The position numbers and the translations under genes were made by a program. From Hygrocybe punicea (Eukaryota; Basidiomycota; Agaricomycetes; Agaricales; Hygrophoraceae), in assembly GCA_963556145.1 (NCBI GenBank), contig OY744461.1, forward strand, positions 8,938,891 through 9,002,890: a stretch of 64,000 nt of DNA. The letters are read 5' to 3'. Shown here one piece after another: positions 31,112-39,898 of this stretch. Every line of letters starts with the position of its first letter. Within the stretch, counting starts at the first letter, position 1. The notes under the pieces were generated by a model that saw nothing but the letters and a program-made list of their open reading frames with translations, was not told the DNA's origin and did no database searches.

Positions 31112-32432
31112 GTGACGAGCTGACGGTTGCGGTCGCACTGAGGGAGTGGGCAAAGGCGGTTGTGCTTGTTGAACAAGGTTCGTTCGTACCCGTTTTCCCC
31201 CTTGTGTTTCCGGTGCCCACATATTTCATAGGAAAAGCAAAACTCTCCACAACCCCTCCACTTGCATCCAAACTCCCCACTCTCACCACACTGTTGACCA
31301 CCTCCCTTTTGCAATCACTTTCTTCCCTTACGAATCGTAAATCAGACGTTGTTAGTCTCATATCTTGGTGGGTGCGGCTGCAAGCGGGTCCTGCGGCTCG
31401 AAATACCTTCCTCAACGCCCGTTCGAAGGCCATTCATAAACATATACGCGCGATCAGGTTTGATGGCCATATTGGCATGTACATCGGTGATTTAGCGATT
31501 GTGGTGTTCACAGGGATAAAGCATATGGCGGATTGGTTTTTGGCGAGCTTCAAGGAGAATGAAGTGGCCAGTTGTGCGTTGGCTCATCTTGAATCCGGTG
31601 GCAAGCTTTTGACTTACTCAAAAACTTTCCCGGCTAGCGTTTATTAAACGGACAAAAAAGCAGCTAGAAGATCACGCCAAGATGTTCAGGAAACAAGTGT
31701 ATAGCTCGGGTGTGGACACAAATACTGTGGATGAAGCTCTCAAGATTACTCATAGGCAGAGTAAAAAGGTCTGTAACTGTTTTAAATAATTACCTCATCT
31801 CATTCTCCGTCACGCAGCTCTTGCAAGAATATGGGCCCGACTTCCGCTTCTTCTTGGATGACCTCCTCACCGAGAAACCGAAAGAAACTGTGGCACCACC
31901 GCCAGCATTTAGCCTTCGCGCGTATCAGAATCCCGAGCCTATACTTCTTCAAACTCCATCAACGGAATCATTTATGTCGCCGGTCCCCAATTCCGCTCGT
32001 CCCAATGTACCCAATGTCCGTCTTCTCTTCTCCCCGGCTGCGGCCACGCCCAGACCCTTTACCTCACGCTTCCGATCTGCACTTCCCACCCTCACCACGC
32101 CCGCCACTGGCGACTCGGACATTCCTTCCGCCTTCGCACTTCCTTCCGTGCTGCGCACCCCAATGTCAGCATTCCCGCCGCCGTCACCACCCACATCGCC
32201 CATTTCCCAAGTCGTATCACCCATCCCGAGGCGCATGCGGTCGCCGCCGCCCAGTGCCTATGCACTGCGCAGTGTGACACAGGGCTCGATAAGTCGCCCT
32301 CCCAGACCTCTGTCAGGTAGTCCGGCTCCGCGCGCCAGCAGCCCTGCACCCCCTCCACGGTCTACCAATAGACCTGGGAGCGCGCATCGACCACCCCCAG
32401 TTGCCGTGCCCAAGAGAGACGGCATGTTCTGA
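31112..32432 (+). CDS. Exocyst subunit EXO84, C-terminal part (5' end lost in gap)
   Basis: EXO84 is a subunit of the octameric exocyst that tethers secretory vesicles at the plasma membrane. Four exons read without lesion: 31112-31177 (DELTVAVALREWAKAVVLVE), 31232-31597 (KAKLSTTPPLASKLP, LQAGPAARNTFLNARSKAI, GHIGMYIGDLAIVVFTGIKH, DWFLASFKENEVAS), 31638-31768 (KKQLEDHAKMFRKQVY, DEALKITHRQSKK), and 31818-32432 (LLQEYGPDFRFFLDDLL, then a Pro/Ser-rich tail). Introns are 54, 40 and 49 nt. The second could use GT at 31598 or GC at 31601 with the same frame. The disordered tail, about 185 residues, is basidiomycete-like. Its stop lies 81 bp from the MCC-alpha stop (convergent). The N-terminal half is unseen. 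Confidence 0.85.
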
Positions 32433-34109
32433 ACAATGTCTTCAGGACCACTCCGTTTGGCACGTGGAGGCCCGATAGCGCATTTAAATAACTCTGTAAA
32501 TAGACAAGTGATCCTACGATTCTGCATTTTCCTTGACGTTGACAAGCTCCCTGCCTTCCTCTACCATATCTCCCTTCGTGCAGCCAACAGCCATCACCAC
32601 GCCAACCACATCAGTCCTCAACACGGTCTCTCTTCATGCTCTCCAATACCACAACGGCTTGACCCTTCTCGACCCTGTCACCGACCTTCACCCGTACGTC
32701 CACGATTAGACTTGGCATAGGGGCTTTGAGCACACCTTTACCTGCGGCGAGCACGTCCCTGCCTATAGAGAGCAGCCATTTAGGGGATGGCAATAGGAAG
32801 GTCGTCTTCACACCACCAGTAAACACATGGAGACGCTCCATAGTGCTGGGAGATGAAGAGGGTATGCTATGTTGTGGCAGTTGCCAAATGATGGTAGTCC
32901 GCCGATGCTCGCTATTGAGGGTTACTGCCACAGTTGTCGGGGAGGTGAGCTGCGCGAGTACACATGGAAACGAAGTATTTGATGTTGGCGTGCGCACTGT
33001 GACGTCAAAAGTATGAGATGTGGTAGATTTAATGAGGACAGTGATAAGTTCTCCAGAGGCTTCGTCTTGTAGAGTGATGACTCGTTTGTGTATGTCTCCA
33101 CCAAAGCGACGGGAAAGGGGGGGAAGACCATGGTGAGGGAGATGTCGTCGTTTGGTCCCGGAGGACTACGAATATTGCAGCTTGTGCGAGAACTTCAGGG
33201 GACGCCTCAGAGATAGCTGGGAATAGGTCAGCAGTGTGATTCTGCGCATATATACGTATGAGTTGAAAGATGGAGACTGTATAGAGAATGGATGACGTAC
33301 CGTAATAAACCCTGTCTCGACCTCCCCATCAATGAACGCCTGATTACCCGCCAAGGTCCTCAGGAATTCCACGTTGGTAGCAACACCCACAACTCTATAC
33401 TCATCTAATGCCTTGCGCAGCATTCGCAATGCTTCGGTGCGATCCCTGGCATGCACAACGAGCTTTGCAATCATAGGGTCATAAAATACGCCGCTTTCCA
33501 TGAAGCCTTGTTCGAGCCGCAAAGAAGGTGATATTGTCAGGGTGGTGTCGTGGGAGGGTCTGAGGTCTGACTGAGGGATGAGTGAAGAGGCTGACGGGGG
33601 TGAAGGAAAGGAGGGAGCGAATATTTGCTTGGGGGTGGGCGTGGAGAGGTAGAGAAGCGGCCCAGAGTCGGGGAGGAAGTTGTTGCGAGGGTTCTCGGCA
33701 TAGATACGGGCTTCAAAGGCATGACCGACAAGTGGAATAGCTGATTGCGCCAAAGGCAGAGCATTGCCTGCTGCGACCTGTGGAGGTGGCGACAGCTTGT
33801 ATGCATGGAATCAAACAAAGGACCGCACCTCCAATTGCCATTCAACAAGATCCAACCCGGTGACCATTTCCGTAACAGGATGTTCGACTTGAAGCCTCGT
33901 ATTCCTGATCGTGCAAGAAAAAGGTGAGAATAGACAAGGAAGACTTTCTGGATATGGCCTTACATTTCCATAAAATAGAATCCCTGCGTATCATTGTCGA
34001 AGATGAACTCGACAGTCCCAGCACTGACATAATTTACTGCTCTGGCAGCAGCAATTGCCTTAGCACTAAGATCTGCTCTCAAATCTGCCGAGAGCCCAGG
34101 GGCAGGTGC

Positions 34110-35176
34110 CTAATCACCCGAATGCGTACATCAGGAAAACGTGGAGACACAGGGATTTCCAGACAGATCTTATCAACAGATAGCTGACCGATATCATGTG
34201 ATCTAGTGATATATAAGCTTATCACAATTTAAAACTCTGATAACAATATTGTCATACTATTCCTGTAGCTATCACATTGATATTTTAAGATCAAGTCATG
34301 TAATTCTGATAACAATATTGTCACACTATTCCTGTAGCTATCACATTGATATTTTAAGATAAAGTCATGTAATTCTGATAACAATATTGTCACACTATTC
34401 ATGTAGCTATCACATTGATATTCTAAGATCATGTCATGAAATTCTGATGTTAAGATGGTGAATTCTTCTCAGAGGTATTGCAAGACTGGAATTATTTTGT
34501 ATGTGGTGATATATTAAAATCTATGCATGGTCACACTGTTAAGATTTGGCATTCCATTGGCAAGTAACTATCTTTCTTGTACCTGGAGTCTGTATAAATA
34601 TGTACACATATGTTGGCACTATTTGGCTGCACACCTGTGGGTTGAACAAAATACAAAATCTTGTTCATGTCTCAATTTTTCATCCTTACACTTATATTAA
34701 GCATTCAAATTGGACAATAAGACAATAAGTGAGATAAGATAAACTTCCAAGACCTTGAGATAAGATTAGATAAAATTAATTCTAAGACCTTGAGATAACA
34801 TCAGATAAATTCCAAGAAGATTTAACATGAGACCATTATAAGATAAGTGAATAAGAAAGACAATGGTTAAAAGGCAGAATTTTTTCCCCTCCTATTACTC
34901 AATAACAGATATTCTAATATCATTGGTTACCAATGAATACCAGAGTTAGTAGTCAAGACATTGTTGGCAACTAATGCTACATTGACATCAATATGCTTGA
35001 TGTGATGTATTTTCATCTAGGTAACCATAAATTATCTGAGTTGACCTGGCTGTCATCATAGTGATACTGGATGTTACTTATGATGTATCAGATCAGGTCT
35101 TATAAGACTTTCTCATTTCATGTTCAATTTCCTGATGTATTTAACAACAACCTACGATGTAATTGAGGGCACACAC
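34110..35176 (-). other. 1067-nt expanded intron in the MCC-alpha gene
   Basis: Donor GTGTGT at 35176 and acceptor ATTAG at 34110 join IIEE to APAPGLSAD in frame. Neighbouring introns in this gene are 49-67 nt, so about 1 kb of AT-rich DNA has been inserted. The intron contains a 69-bp tandem repeat and no coding sequence. Confidence 0.75.
34236..34445. repeat. 69-bp tandem repeat, 3 units
   Basis: Three near-identical 69-bp units start at 34235, 34304 and 34373 with TCTGATAACAATATTGTCA and end in AAGTCATGTAAT; a partial fourth begins at 34442. The period is a multiple of three, which is why the minus-strand frame stays open; there is no protein here. Confidence 0.85.
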
Positions 35177-35761
35177 CTCTTCAATGATCTTTTGATTTCT
35201 TCTTTGCACCGAACAATCTCTCTCCCACAAGCTTACCACCGCACCGAACTTGTCGGCAAATATCTGTACCTCGACATGCTGTGGTTGTTCGATGTATTTT
35301 TCCACCAGAACCATTGCATTTCCGAAGGCCTTTTGTGATTCTCGCTGGGCGGATAATAGTGTTGCCACGGCTCGGTCCGGAACCGTTAGCCGTTGGAGCC
35401 GGACCGATAATTAGCCGAGCCGAGCCATTCACTCAGCTAACGGTTAAACCTCGGCTTAGCCACGGCTAGCCGTTATTAGCCGTTACCAAATATCCAAATT
35501 AGGAAATTTAGGTTTCCAGCCTTTTTGCTGGCTTCAACTTCACTTGGATAACCCTCTGCTGCCTCCCATACCTCACGAACATGTACAGCCACAGTTCACA
35601 AGGTTTTCAGGTGTTTCTTTTTCTTTTTGCGTATCTCCACATAGCCTACCTATGTACATGTACATGTATATGAAAAATATGAAAAATACCTATTTCATTG
35701 TCTTCCTGAATAGATCCATATTAAGCCTCAAACTTGGCCTGTGTAAGAATTTCCGAAAAGT

Positions 35762-35976
35762 CATTGCCATCCTTGAACGACTCGATTTCGATCCTTGTCG
35801 ACTGCTGACAACATCCGCTTAGCCTTCTCGACCTCGCGCTTGAGCTTGCCCATTGCGCTCAAGTTCAGCGACACATCAGTACCTGTCTTCTTCTTGTATG
35901 CCTTGACAAGATGGTCGATAACGCGGTTGTAAAATTCCTCGCCTCCAAGATGAGCAAAGGAGGGAGAAGCCGCCAT
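35762..35976 (-). pseudogene. Captured Hsp70 fragment
   Basis: On the minus strand [40 protein letters not shown] and VEKAKRML match the conserved lobe-II region of cytosolic/ER Hsp70 (usually HLGGEDFDNR...KKTGTDVS...[13 protein letters not shown]). After KRML the frame shifts and continues as [16 protein letters not shown], also Hsp70. The piece covers about 75 residues, is flanked on both sides by unrelated sequence, and lies wholly inside the hAT-like element. Confidence 0.85.
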
Positions 35977-36099
35977 GCGCCGGGGTCGGATGCGCAGACG
36001 TCAAGGGAGGCAAGACATGGTAGTAAATTTGCAGAACGATTGTCGTCATGGTCGTTGTCGTCATGACAGCAGTTGTCGGTGTCGGTGTTGTCATATGAG

Positions 36100-37960
36100 G
36101 TGTGGGGGGTTGGATCATGTCGTGGGTGGTCGAAATCAGCGGCTGGAAGGTGCAGGAACCACCGAAAAAACTTGGGGGGGGGGGGTGGGGGGACAAATTG
36201 ATGGCACGGGCGATTGGGAAGCGCCAGCCTGTCGTTTGTGGGCTAAACGAGGTGCGCAGGGTTGTACCATGCCATGGGTGGTCGAAATCGGCAGGTGGAA
36301 GGTGCAGGAACTGCAGGAAAAACTTAGCAGGGGGGTGGGGGGACAAATTGATGGTGCACGCGATTGGGAAGCCCCAGCCTGTCATTTTCGGGCCATATGA
36401 GGTGCGGGTGATTGTACCATGCCGTGGCTGGTCAAAATCGGTGGGTGGAAGGTGCAGGAACCGCCCAAAAAAAACTTGGGGGGGTGAGGGGGACAATATG
36501 ATGGCGTGGGTGATTGGGTAGCCCCAGCCTGTCGTTTGCGGGCTAAACGAGGTGCGGGGGATTGTGCCATGCCATGGGTGGTCGAAATTGGCAGGTGGAA
36601 CTGCCGAAAAAACTTGGGAGGGGGGTGGGGGACAAATTAATGGTGCAGGCGATTGGGAAGCCCCAACCTGTCGTTTGTGGGCTAAACGAGGTGCGCAGGG
36701 TTGTACCATGTTGTGGGTGGTCGAAATCAGCGGGTGGAAGGTGCAGGAACCACTGAAAAAACTTGGGGGGGGGGTGGGGGACAAATTGATGGCGTGGGTG
36801 ATTGGGAAGCTCCAACCTGTCATTTTCGGGCTAAACGAGGTGCGGGGGGTTGGATCATGTCGTGGGTGGTCGAAATCGGCAGGTGGAAGCACCAGGAACC
36901 GCCAAAGAAAACTTGGAGGGGTGGATGGGCAAAGTGATGGTGTGGGTGGCTGGGCAGCCCCGGGCTGTCGTTTTCACGCCGAACGAGGTGCAGGGGCCTG
37001 TGCCATGCCATGGGTGGTCGAAATTGGCGGGTGGAAGCAGCAGGAACGAATGCAAAAAAGGTGGTTGAGGTTGGGGGGCAAAGTGACGGCGCGAGTGATT
37101 GGGCAGCCCCGGGCTGTCATTTTCAGGCTGAAGGAGGAGTGGGGGGTTGTACCATGCAGTGGGTGGTCGAAATCGGTGGGTGGAAACAGCAGGAACCGCT
37201 GAAAGAAATTTGGGGGTGGGTGGGGTGGACAACGTGATGGCGTGGGCGATTGGGTAGCCCCAGCCTGTCGATTTCCGGCCGAACGAGGTGCGGGGGGTTG
37301 TGCCATGTCGTGGGTGGTCGAAATCGGCCAGTGGAAGGAGCAGGAACCACCGAAAACAACTGGGGGCTGCTGTGGGGGACAATGTGATGACACGGGCGAT
37401 TTGGAAGCCCCAGCCAGTCGATTTCCGGCCAAACGAGGTGCGGGGCATTGTGCCATCTCGTGGGTGGTAGAAATCGTCGGGTGGAAGGTGCAGGAACCGC
37501 CGAAAACAACTTGGGGGTGCTGGGGGGGGACAATGTGATGGCATGGGCGATTGGGCAGCCCCAGCCTGTCGTTTTCGAGCCAAACGAGGTGCGGGGGATT
37601 AAGAGGTGCTATGGGCAGTCGAAATTGCTAGGGGGAAGCAGCAGGAACCGCCCAAAAAAACTTGGAGGAGGTGGGGGGGGCAAAGTGATGGCACGCGCGA
37701 TTGGCTGGCACCGGCCTATCATTTTGATGTGAAACGAGGTGCGGGGGGTTCAAAGATGCCTTGTGTGCTCGATATCAGTGGGAGGCAGCAGCAGGAACCG
37801 CCGAACAAAGCTTGGAGGAGGTGGGGGGGTGCAAAGTGAAGGGACGCGCGATTGGGCAGCCCCGGCCAGAAGTTATCAGTCCAAATGAGGTGCGGCATGC
37901 AGTGGGCAGTCGAAAGCGATGGGTGGAGACAACAGAAGCCGCCCGATGAACTGGGGAAGT
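36100..37960. repeat. ~150-bp tandem array, 13 units, inside the hAT-like element
   Basis: Thirteen units recur every 139-152 bp, with GTGGTCGAAATCGG near 36129, 36281, 36431, 36581, 36720, 36869, 37018, 37167, 37318, 37468, 37619, 37768 and 37908. Each unit also carries AACGAGGTGCGGGGG and a G-run after AACTTGG. The usual period is a multiple of three, so long frames are open on both strands. They are repeat by-products, not genes. Confidence 0.9.
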
Positions 37961-38330
37961 AAATCACAACAAAATGACAGTCACCTCATTTGATGTAGTG
38001 CTGTTGCCGTCGTTGCCACTGCTGCTGTTTGCCGTCGCCGTGGTCATTGGTCATTGCTGCTGCTGTCCGGGCGGCTGTTGCCTCGAGATAATTTGTGCTG
38101 TAATCAGAAATAAGTTGGTATTATTAAAAAAACAAAGATTCAAGAAAAGACATAGCGGGAGTGGGCACGTTGCCGCTTCATTCCTCGCCCCTCTGCTGGT
38201 CGCCGTTGGCCTTTGTTTTGGGTTGGCCTGCGTTGTCGCGAGCTGGTGTGGCTGTGGCTGTTGGCGTGGTGTCACTGGTGTGCTCCGCATGTTTGTGTGG
38301 TGAGATTGGTGACCTTGGTGGTTGTCCGCT
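37961..38330 (+). other. Non-coding inner right part of the hAT-like element
   Basis: Short GCTGCTG/GTTGCC-rich stretches and an A-rich patch, with an open frame of 109 codons (37974-38303) without any recognisable motif. I assign no function. Confidence 0.3.
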
Positions 38331-39898
38331 ATTAATTTCCTTTTTTGGACGGCTAACCGTGGTTTAGCCGTTCCACAACGGTCCGGTCCGGCTAACAACC
38401 CATATATGGGTTAGCCGTTGTTAGCCATAGCCGAGCCAAGCCGGACCGAGCCGTGGCAACACTAGCGGATAACAGCGCCTCCTCAAAAACAGCAGCAGAG
38501 GGAGGTGATGAGACTGTACGCATGCCTTTCCCACCTCCTCCGTGGATTGCTTTAATTAGCACTGAGAAGCCTGTTTGTCCACATTCAGAGTTGAGGAGAG
38601 AAAGGCGCGAGAGGGTGGGATAAGTGGGGTTACCTATTTTCTTGGCTTGTTCGTAAAGATAATTTGGGTCTTGGTTTTCTCCGTGATATCCTGGCACACA
38701 AGGGACTCCAGCAGCTTATTACCAAGTAAGTATAGGAAGACTCGTCTTATCAAAGGAAGATCAGGAAACATACCTAACATGATATTCTTCGATTCACTAA
38801 TGTTAGATAAGTAGTATATTGGTAGAATGACATTTGGACAGAGATTCCTACATACCTCTTTGATCCCATGCTCAGCACTGGCAGGCAGACCAATGAACAC
38901 GATCCCTTCCTGAGCCAGGCGTTCCGAAAACAGCGCATTTTCGCTCAAAAATCCATAGCTGGTCGAATAAGACGTCAGTACAGAACTGGATGTCACAGTC
39001 GTACCGTTTCAAGACGTAGACTTACCCAGGATGGACTGCCTGTGATTTCGAAGGGAAAATGTAGGTGGTGCTGCAAAAATCAAGGGAAAGACGCACCTGG
39101 GCACCACTTCGATGACAAACATCAATAATTTTGTCCATCCGAAGCTGACAGAAAGTTGAATGTGGTCCTCGATACCGATATTAAATGTACGACTGACATA
39201 GCTCTCAGAAGAAGGTGGTGGGCCAATGCAATACGCCTCGTCTGCCTGTAATATCCATATTATCTTTCCTGGTCTGAGAAATTAGGAAAATGCCAGACAA
39301 ACCATCTGGACATGTCACGGTAATGCATCCTTGTCCGCTTCGCTATACACCGCCACTGTCCTAACACCCAGCTTCTTGGCAGTTCTGATGACGCGACAGG
39401 CGATTTCTCCTCTACAAGTGGGTCAGCTATTACGAGCCGAAGGAAAAAGAGGGATTTGACCTATTCGCTATGAGGATCTTGTCAAAGTGAGGTCGCCTGG
39501 TTTGAGAGGGTGTGAGGTGACTGAGGTCTGTGCAGCGGATGATGCCACGATTGCCAGTGTTCATACAAATATGTTTCTACCACAAACTGCTAATATTGTT
39601 TTGGAAAAAGAATGGTGCAAAGGTGGACTTGTTAAAATTGTTCTACTTGTACTGGGATTGAAGGAATGGGGAATTCAAATTCATGGGAAGGCAGCACATG
39701 AAAAATGGATAAAAGTTCAGCTAGAGGTAAAGTCAGTGTTTCAGAAAATTCTATCTCCTGAAAAATTGTAAGTGATTATTGGTGGATATGGTCAATAAAA
39801 ACACTGATATCAGAAATTAGAAAGGAGTCTAAAATGCGTATGGATTAAGAAGAGGCAAATGAGGAGGGCCATCAAAAAAGAAATGATAAGGCATACAT

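Follow-up and report, generated by a model that had tools for sequence, protein, structure and literature searches.

The window, a 64,000-nucleotide stretch of Hygrocybe punicea contig OY744461.1, contains a transposable element inserted in a gene for the alpha subunit of methylcrotonoyl-CoA carboxylase (MCC-alpha), whose ATP-grasp exon it splits. Specifically, the element proper occupies positions 35357 to 38464 (3,108 bp) and is flanked by identical, unstranded 8-bp target site duplications (TSDs), GCGGATAA, at 35349 to 35356 and 38465 to 38472. MCC-alpha lies on the reverse strand, with the portion 5′ of the insertion, including the 5′ part of the split exon, at 38473 to 38715 (CPSase_L_D2, E = 9.4e-5) and the 3′ part of the exon at 35144 to 35348 (CPSase_L_D2, E = 2.6e-18 for 35144 to 35356). 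The preliminary description had placed a 3.1-kb hAT-like element with a perfect 8-bp TSD in this exon, and the ends, the GCGGATAA pair, and the split exon were all seen. Its limits, 35349 to 38472, gave the right site but include both TSD copies, and the termini, described as identical over 19 bp, are identical over 24 bp.

When the MCC-alpha flanks are joined with a single TSD copy, the translation stays in frame, and an uninterrupted paralogous exon at C3:1513180-1513500 aligns across the join with 309 of 321 positions identical, in agreement with the in-frame empty site proposed earlier. Like both flank pieces, the paralogous exon matches the CPSase_L_D2 ATP-grasp domain. Among solved structures, the joined exon translations were closest to MCC-alpha (1.7e-94), followed by propionyl-CoA carboxylase (3.4e-72). 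MCC-alpha-like exons with 66 to 95% identity are present on C1, C3, C8, C12, C13, C16, C33, C36, and C39; some lie close to the end of a contig or on a short one, and an uninterrupted exon is contained in C3:1512366-1514365. With several MCC-alpha copies in the genome, the fungus may have kept its MCC activity despite the insertion. Window positions 31112 to 39564, with MCC-alpha and the element, recur at C33:6465701-6474149 as an 8.45-kb copy that is 99.94% identical, differing by one substitution and four single-base length differences. Since this copy begins, in the window, at a 100-N gap, an assembly error is possible. Being a near-identical copy of the whole locus, the C33 copy with its identical TSD was rejected as a second independent insertion.

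The ends of the element are formed by 24-bp terminal inverted repeats (35357 to 35380, forward strand; 38441 to 38464, reverse strand). The left arm (35357 to 35693, forward strand) is common to two members of the family that lack BiP sequence (L042 and L043), and the right arm (37999 to 38464, forward strand) is common to the subfamilies. Between the arms lie two reverse-strand blocks captured from a resident BiP/Kar2 gene: block B at 35694 to 35954, corresponding to positions 1198 to 1465 of the resident gene (91.8% identity; numbering in the coding orientation of L051), and block A at 35952 to 36046, corresponding to positions 32 to 126 (90.6%). Block A comprises approximately 70 bp of 5′ flank, the start codon, and the first codons of BiP. 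An internal deletion joins the two blocks, which together span 353 bp (35694 to 36046). The frame at 35764 to 36000 matches PF00012 (E = 1.9e-12), so that the Hsp70 fragment noted in the preliminary description was recovered at both the protein and the DNA level. The blocks are followed by a remnant (36039 to 36092, unstranded) that matches positions 305 to 358 of a transcription-factor-like locus, L059, with 90.7% identity and shares 8 bp with block A at their junction. The interior typical of the window subfamily, a minisatellite of about 150 bp × 12, extends from 36097 to 37895 (unstranded). A transposase is absent from the ORF list, and none of 150 hAT-domain places checked, among the matches listed (at least 152), falls inside the element, as expected from the earlier statement that it lacks one. 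Scans of the window for tRNAs and Rfam families gave no matches.

The terminal 19-mer, with up to two mismatches allowed, has 468 matches in the genome (247 + 221), whereas the reversed pattern used as a control has none (0 + 0); at least 64 DNA matches to the window element were found with 40 of 400 candidate regions scored. These numbers indicate a family and not a chance similarity. The assembly search for copies with the same termini, which had been suggested at the outset, also revealed differing interiors. Fifty loci were scanned for ends: 35 had one pair, one (L004) had several and was left out, and 14, including three flank stretches, had none. The TSDs of the 35 one-pair loci were perfect 8-bp repeats in 32 cases and carried one or two mismatches in 3, with none reaching 9 bp; not all of these loci are independent insertions, as L001 and L002 are one duplicated locus and L034, L038, and L039 share a TSD. 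The TSDs of L011 and L012 are reverse-complementary, perhaps by chance. For the fetched BiP-bearing copies, TSDs differ between insertions. Membership in the hAT superfamily is indicated by the 8-bp TSD, the short terminal inverted repeats, and a transposase, encoded by a relative with matching ends, that has a C-terminal hAT dimerisation domain. The hallmarks of Pack-hAT, or transduplicating, elements were likewise found, namely, a host gene fragment between the ends, a resident donor, no transposase seen, and several cargo-bearing insertions. Pack-MULEs have TSDs of 9 to 11 bp and were rejected, as 0 of the 35 loci has a TSD over 8 bp; Helitrons have neither terminal inverted repeats nor a TSD and were rejected, as the window element has both.

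Nine elements of 9.3 kb (L031 to L039) have the same ends, and all nine, as fetched, possess a perfect 8-bp TSD. They are 95.6 to 99.98% identical over the alignments listed, and their right-end 132 bp are 88 to 98% identical to those of four non-autonomous members; with the gene-carrying members compared, they have terminal sequence only in common. The hAT dimerisation domain (Dimer_Tnp_hAT, PF05699) was detected in the one 9.3-kb element scanned (E = 3.4e-13), and at least eight of the nine contain a hAT domain match among the matches listed. An in-frame TGA is present in three of those eight, which represent one duplicated insertion with a shared TSD. The N-terminal frame of the transposase had no Pfam match. 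Based on the common ends and the dimerisation domain, the 9.3-kb element is the likely source of transposase for the window element, on which it would act in trans. The insertion with the shared TSD is located at C8:6076167, C14:7524, and C29:14668. One of these contigs is long and the other two are short, a pattern suggestive of contig redundancy or duplication. A 780-aa ORF of the 9.3-kb element (L033:944-3286), antisense to the transposase, has 10 homologs at E ≤ 1e-3, two of them named as Mycena metata, and no Pfam match.

Alignment of the captured blocks to the resident Hsp70 genes, another check proposed in the preliminary description, identified the gene at C8:2504000-2506700 as the best donor. 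Its product ends in HDEL, and its named close relatives among the best 120 are mostly agaricomycete Hsp70s, with some annotated as ER ATPase or heat shock protein 5; for these reasons, we refer to the donor as BiP/Kar2. The three top-scoring matches of the donor protein are double-length plant proteins with about 60% identity. Seven element sequences are 87 to 95% identical to the C8 donor over two main blocks, with lower values (73 to 88%) for the paralog at C33:2410300. The assignment to the Hsp70 family thus stood, and it can be narrowed to BiP/Kar2, of which the window-type copies have two pieces in common by descent. Besides the two resident genes, BiP pieces are present at 54 or more places (38 scored, from 40 of 68 candidates, plus 16 in fetched loci), two of which are one duplicated locus. 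One of these places, C1:5516845, lies 9.8 kb from a hAT domain among the domain matches listed.

Together, the captured blocks reach from donor position 32 to 1861 (1.83 kb), with positions 872 to 893 seen in no copy; the full segment was not found in any single copy. By subfamily, the blocks cover 32-126 plus 1198-1465, 447-661 plus 1009-1466, 32-871, 32-716, 32-616 plus 1563-1861, and 1283-1682. As the subfamilies hold other parts of the same BiP segment, the window cargo appears to be what remained after internal deletions. The start codon (position 102) lies about 70 bp into the segment, whose other end falls within intron 8, the intron limits of the donor being a reading of frames. Introns are kept in the captured pieces: in L050, 526 of 543 exon bases and 226 of 239 intron bases are identical to the donor, and the corresponding values for the first block of L057 are 336 of 356 and 196 of 217. 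The presence of introns and 5′ flank indicates that genomic DNA, and not a spliced transcript, was captured.

Both capture junctions are preserved in L057 (C34:1621350-1623110), which follows the BiP-free element L042 to position 738, continues with BiP 1861 to 1563 and BiP 616 to 32, and returns to L042 at position 895. This switch from 738 to 895 implies that BiP replaced 156 bp. The 5′ capture junction is located at the same place in all four copies compared (the window element, L050, L057, and, with base changes, L055). The junction at BiP 1861 was read directly in L057 and deduced from coordinates in C39:5749026. The heptamer TCGTCGT occurs in both parents at most one base from the 5′ junction, a coincidence to which a simple simulation with two breakpoints gives a chance probability of about 0.003. 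Since this match misses the exact junction by one base and lies in GTC-rich surroundings, and since the BiP 1861 junction shows no microhomology, the repair mechanism is unproven.

L041, L042, and L043 contain no BiP match. With 40 of 441 candidates scored, there are at least four full-length BiP-free copies (97 to 100% identity, L042 itself included) and one partial copy covering positions 1 to 1880 (99%). More diverged BiP-free copies at C2:5218663, C8:682979, and C39:5113848 (81 to 85%) run through the replaced 156 bp, which argues for the BiP-free state being the older one; BiP-free copies thus are the probable pre-capture form. One BiP-free element harbors a nested Tc5/pogo-like DDE transposon (L041:1288-3539; HTH_Tnp_Tc5, DDE_1). 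Positions 808 to 1599 of L042 match L059 (C1:7331500-7333400) with 90 to 97% identity. L059 is the sole full-length place of its sequence among 40 scored of 105 candidates and contains no terminal repeat. Its 282-aa frame resembles Fungal_trans with 20.9 bits, and a frame of L041 does so with 19.2 bits, both below the Pfam cut-off of 23; Pfam searches with L059:1-738, L059:582-1169, L041:5413-5970, one L049 frame, and the L040 frame 385-984 gave no match. The 5′ junction of BiP falls inside the piece that matches L059, and the BiP capture looks partly nested in an earlier captured transcription-factor-like piece, an assignment that is sub-threshold.

From the ends, TSDs, family, donor, introns, common 5′ junction, BiP-free form, and differing blocks, all of them directly read, we infer a history that we consider highly probable as a whole. 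The ancestor of this non-autonomous hAT lineage would first have acquired a fragment of a host gene resembling a transcription factor. A single contiguous 1.83-kb piece of genomic BiP DNA, with about 70 bp of 5′ flank at one end and part of intron 8 at the other, would then have replaced 156 bp of the interior, a likely route being that a break in the element was repaired by copying from the BiP locus, with template switches in the process. In the descendant lineages, internal deletions would subsequently have removed differing portions of the cargo, and these lineages would have been amplified. The window element would finally have moved into its MCC-alpha copy, most likely by cut-and-paste, with transposase supplied by a 9.3-kb member. 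The gene-capturing, non-autonomous hAT family postulated in the preliminary description does exist as a family with host gene pieces, but the capture most likely occurred once in an ancestor and not in the window element.

That BiP blocks differ between subfamilies could also mean that each subfamily took its own piece in an independent capture. We regard this as unlikely because the window, E, F, and G types have a common 5′ limit (position 32 or within about 10 bp), the element junction is shared by the four copies mentioned above, and the blocks fit together as overlapping portions of a single segment. In place of break repair, neighbouring elements might have been fused, or inserted in tandem, and re-mobilised jointly, a route suggested for Pack-TYPE elements of plants, hAT among them (PMC8903248); yet BiP sits between the halves of one BiP-free element with 156 bp replaced, and the sole terminal match in L057 (1,761 bp, lacking the right end) is its own left end, which makes this route quite improbable. 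A transcript origin, as for histone H3 in Dothideomycete hATs, is reported for Pseudocercospora fijiensis and stated of the Pyrenophora tritici-repentis case in PMC6710886. Here, it conflicts with the kept introns and with the limits of the segment, which takes in about 70 bp of 5′ flank and stops within intron 8. Capture of a spliced transcript was rejected on account of the introns, and as a transcript would fit only if it had been copied into DNA without being spliced, we assign this origin a very low probability.

Retention of the captured piece for a protein function, e.g., through the 71-codon chimeric frame of window-type copies, is likewise highly improbable. All 14 window-type rows that were translated, among them L002, the duplicate of the window locus, keep open a frame that starts at the BiP start codon and runs for 64 to 91 codons; four further window-type loci lacked a clean end pair and were left out. 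However, 67% of null runs with 11 copies and 64 codons are likewise expected to be free of stops. For the same copies and codons, synonymous changes are at chance level, with 10 observed and 9.9 expected (P = 0.57); lacking a synonymous excess, purifying selection on the chimeric frame was rejected. In six of the seven blocks with at least 20 intron bases, exons and introns differ by 0 to 4 points in their identity to the donor, and the difference is slightly reversed in the seventh; in contrast, the two resident BiP genes are 86.7% identical in exons and 74.6% in introns. Protein-level selection on the BiP piece showed no sign in the tests made.

Several published systems come close to this family. 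Maize Pack-hAT elements are likewise non-autonomous, with terminal repeats, an 8-bp TSD, and host gene pieces inside, and for plant Pack-TYPE elements, acquisition by element fusion or tandem insertion was proposed (PMC8903248). In contrast to these, the host is a fungus here, the BiP-free form and the capture junctions are readable in one genome, and BiP took the place of interior sequence rather than arriving by element fusion. Of 370 animal Pack-TIRs, 208 are hAT elements, for which gap filling was proposed, and they similarly have host DNA copied into the interior and short matches at a breakpoint (PMC8277862); however, the animal cases described there are mostly single-copy, whereas the present family has at least 54 BiP-bearing places and one capture inside another. 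Histone H3 was transduplicated by hATs of Pyrenophora tritici-repentis (PMC3538342) and of Pseudocercospora fijiensis (PMC6710886), fungal elements with an amplified housekeeping gene, an 8-bp TSD in the latter species, and long and short forms in the former. Histone H3 was reported as a transcript or retrocopy capture (PMC3538342, PMC6710886), whereas the BiP DNA is intron-bearing and entered a lineage already holding another host gene piece. The preliminary notion that gene capture is less well described for fungal hATs needs correcting in view of these two reports, and with plants, animals, and Dothideomycetes in print, the kind of event is not new. Capture of BiP or Hsp70 by a hAT element was not found in the searched literature on hAT gene capture, the coverage of which is limited. 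What is unusual is that one genome keeps the donor, a probable pre-capture form, a nested second capture, and deletion derivatives. The capture mode of cut-and-paste elements is usually inferred from end products; the donor, the probable pre-capture element, the copy with both junctions, and the deletion series together make order and mechanism directly testable. Intron-bearing genomic DNA is thereby added to the capture routes of fungal hATs, beside the published transcript captures.

Further cargo was found in L040 (C33:153782-158677), a 4.9-kb element with the same ends whose cargo consists of fatty acid synthase domains (PF22235, 2.9e-29; PF18314, 1.1e-53; PF18325, 6.2e-34; PF00698, 2.5e-9); its TSD, AGCAGCAG, is a simple repeat and hence weak evidence. 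The likely donor is C34:4815126-4819383, which is 95 to 96% identical and contains a 922-aa frame, and the FAS_I_H domain is present at five loci. With a transcription-factor-like piece, a nested BiP piece, and separate fatty acid synthase cargo, the family might constitute a general gene-capture system of this agaricomycete, many of its other members, among several hundred ends in total, carrying further captured genes, a tentative suggestion to which we give slightly less than even chances. A 1.88-kb subfamily contains a 296-bp filler (L025:2350-2645), for which no donor was clear among 23 matches, at places including C7:4175604, C7:1874921, and C2:1471115.
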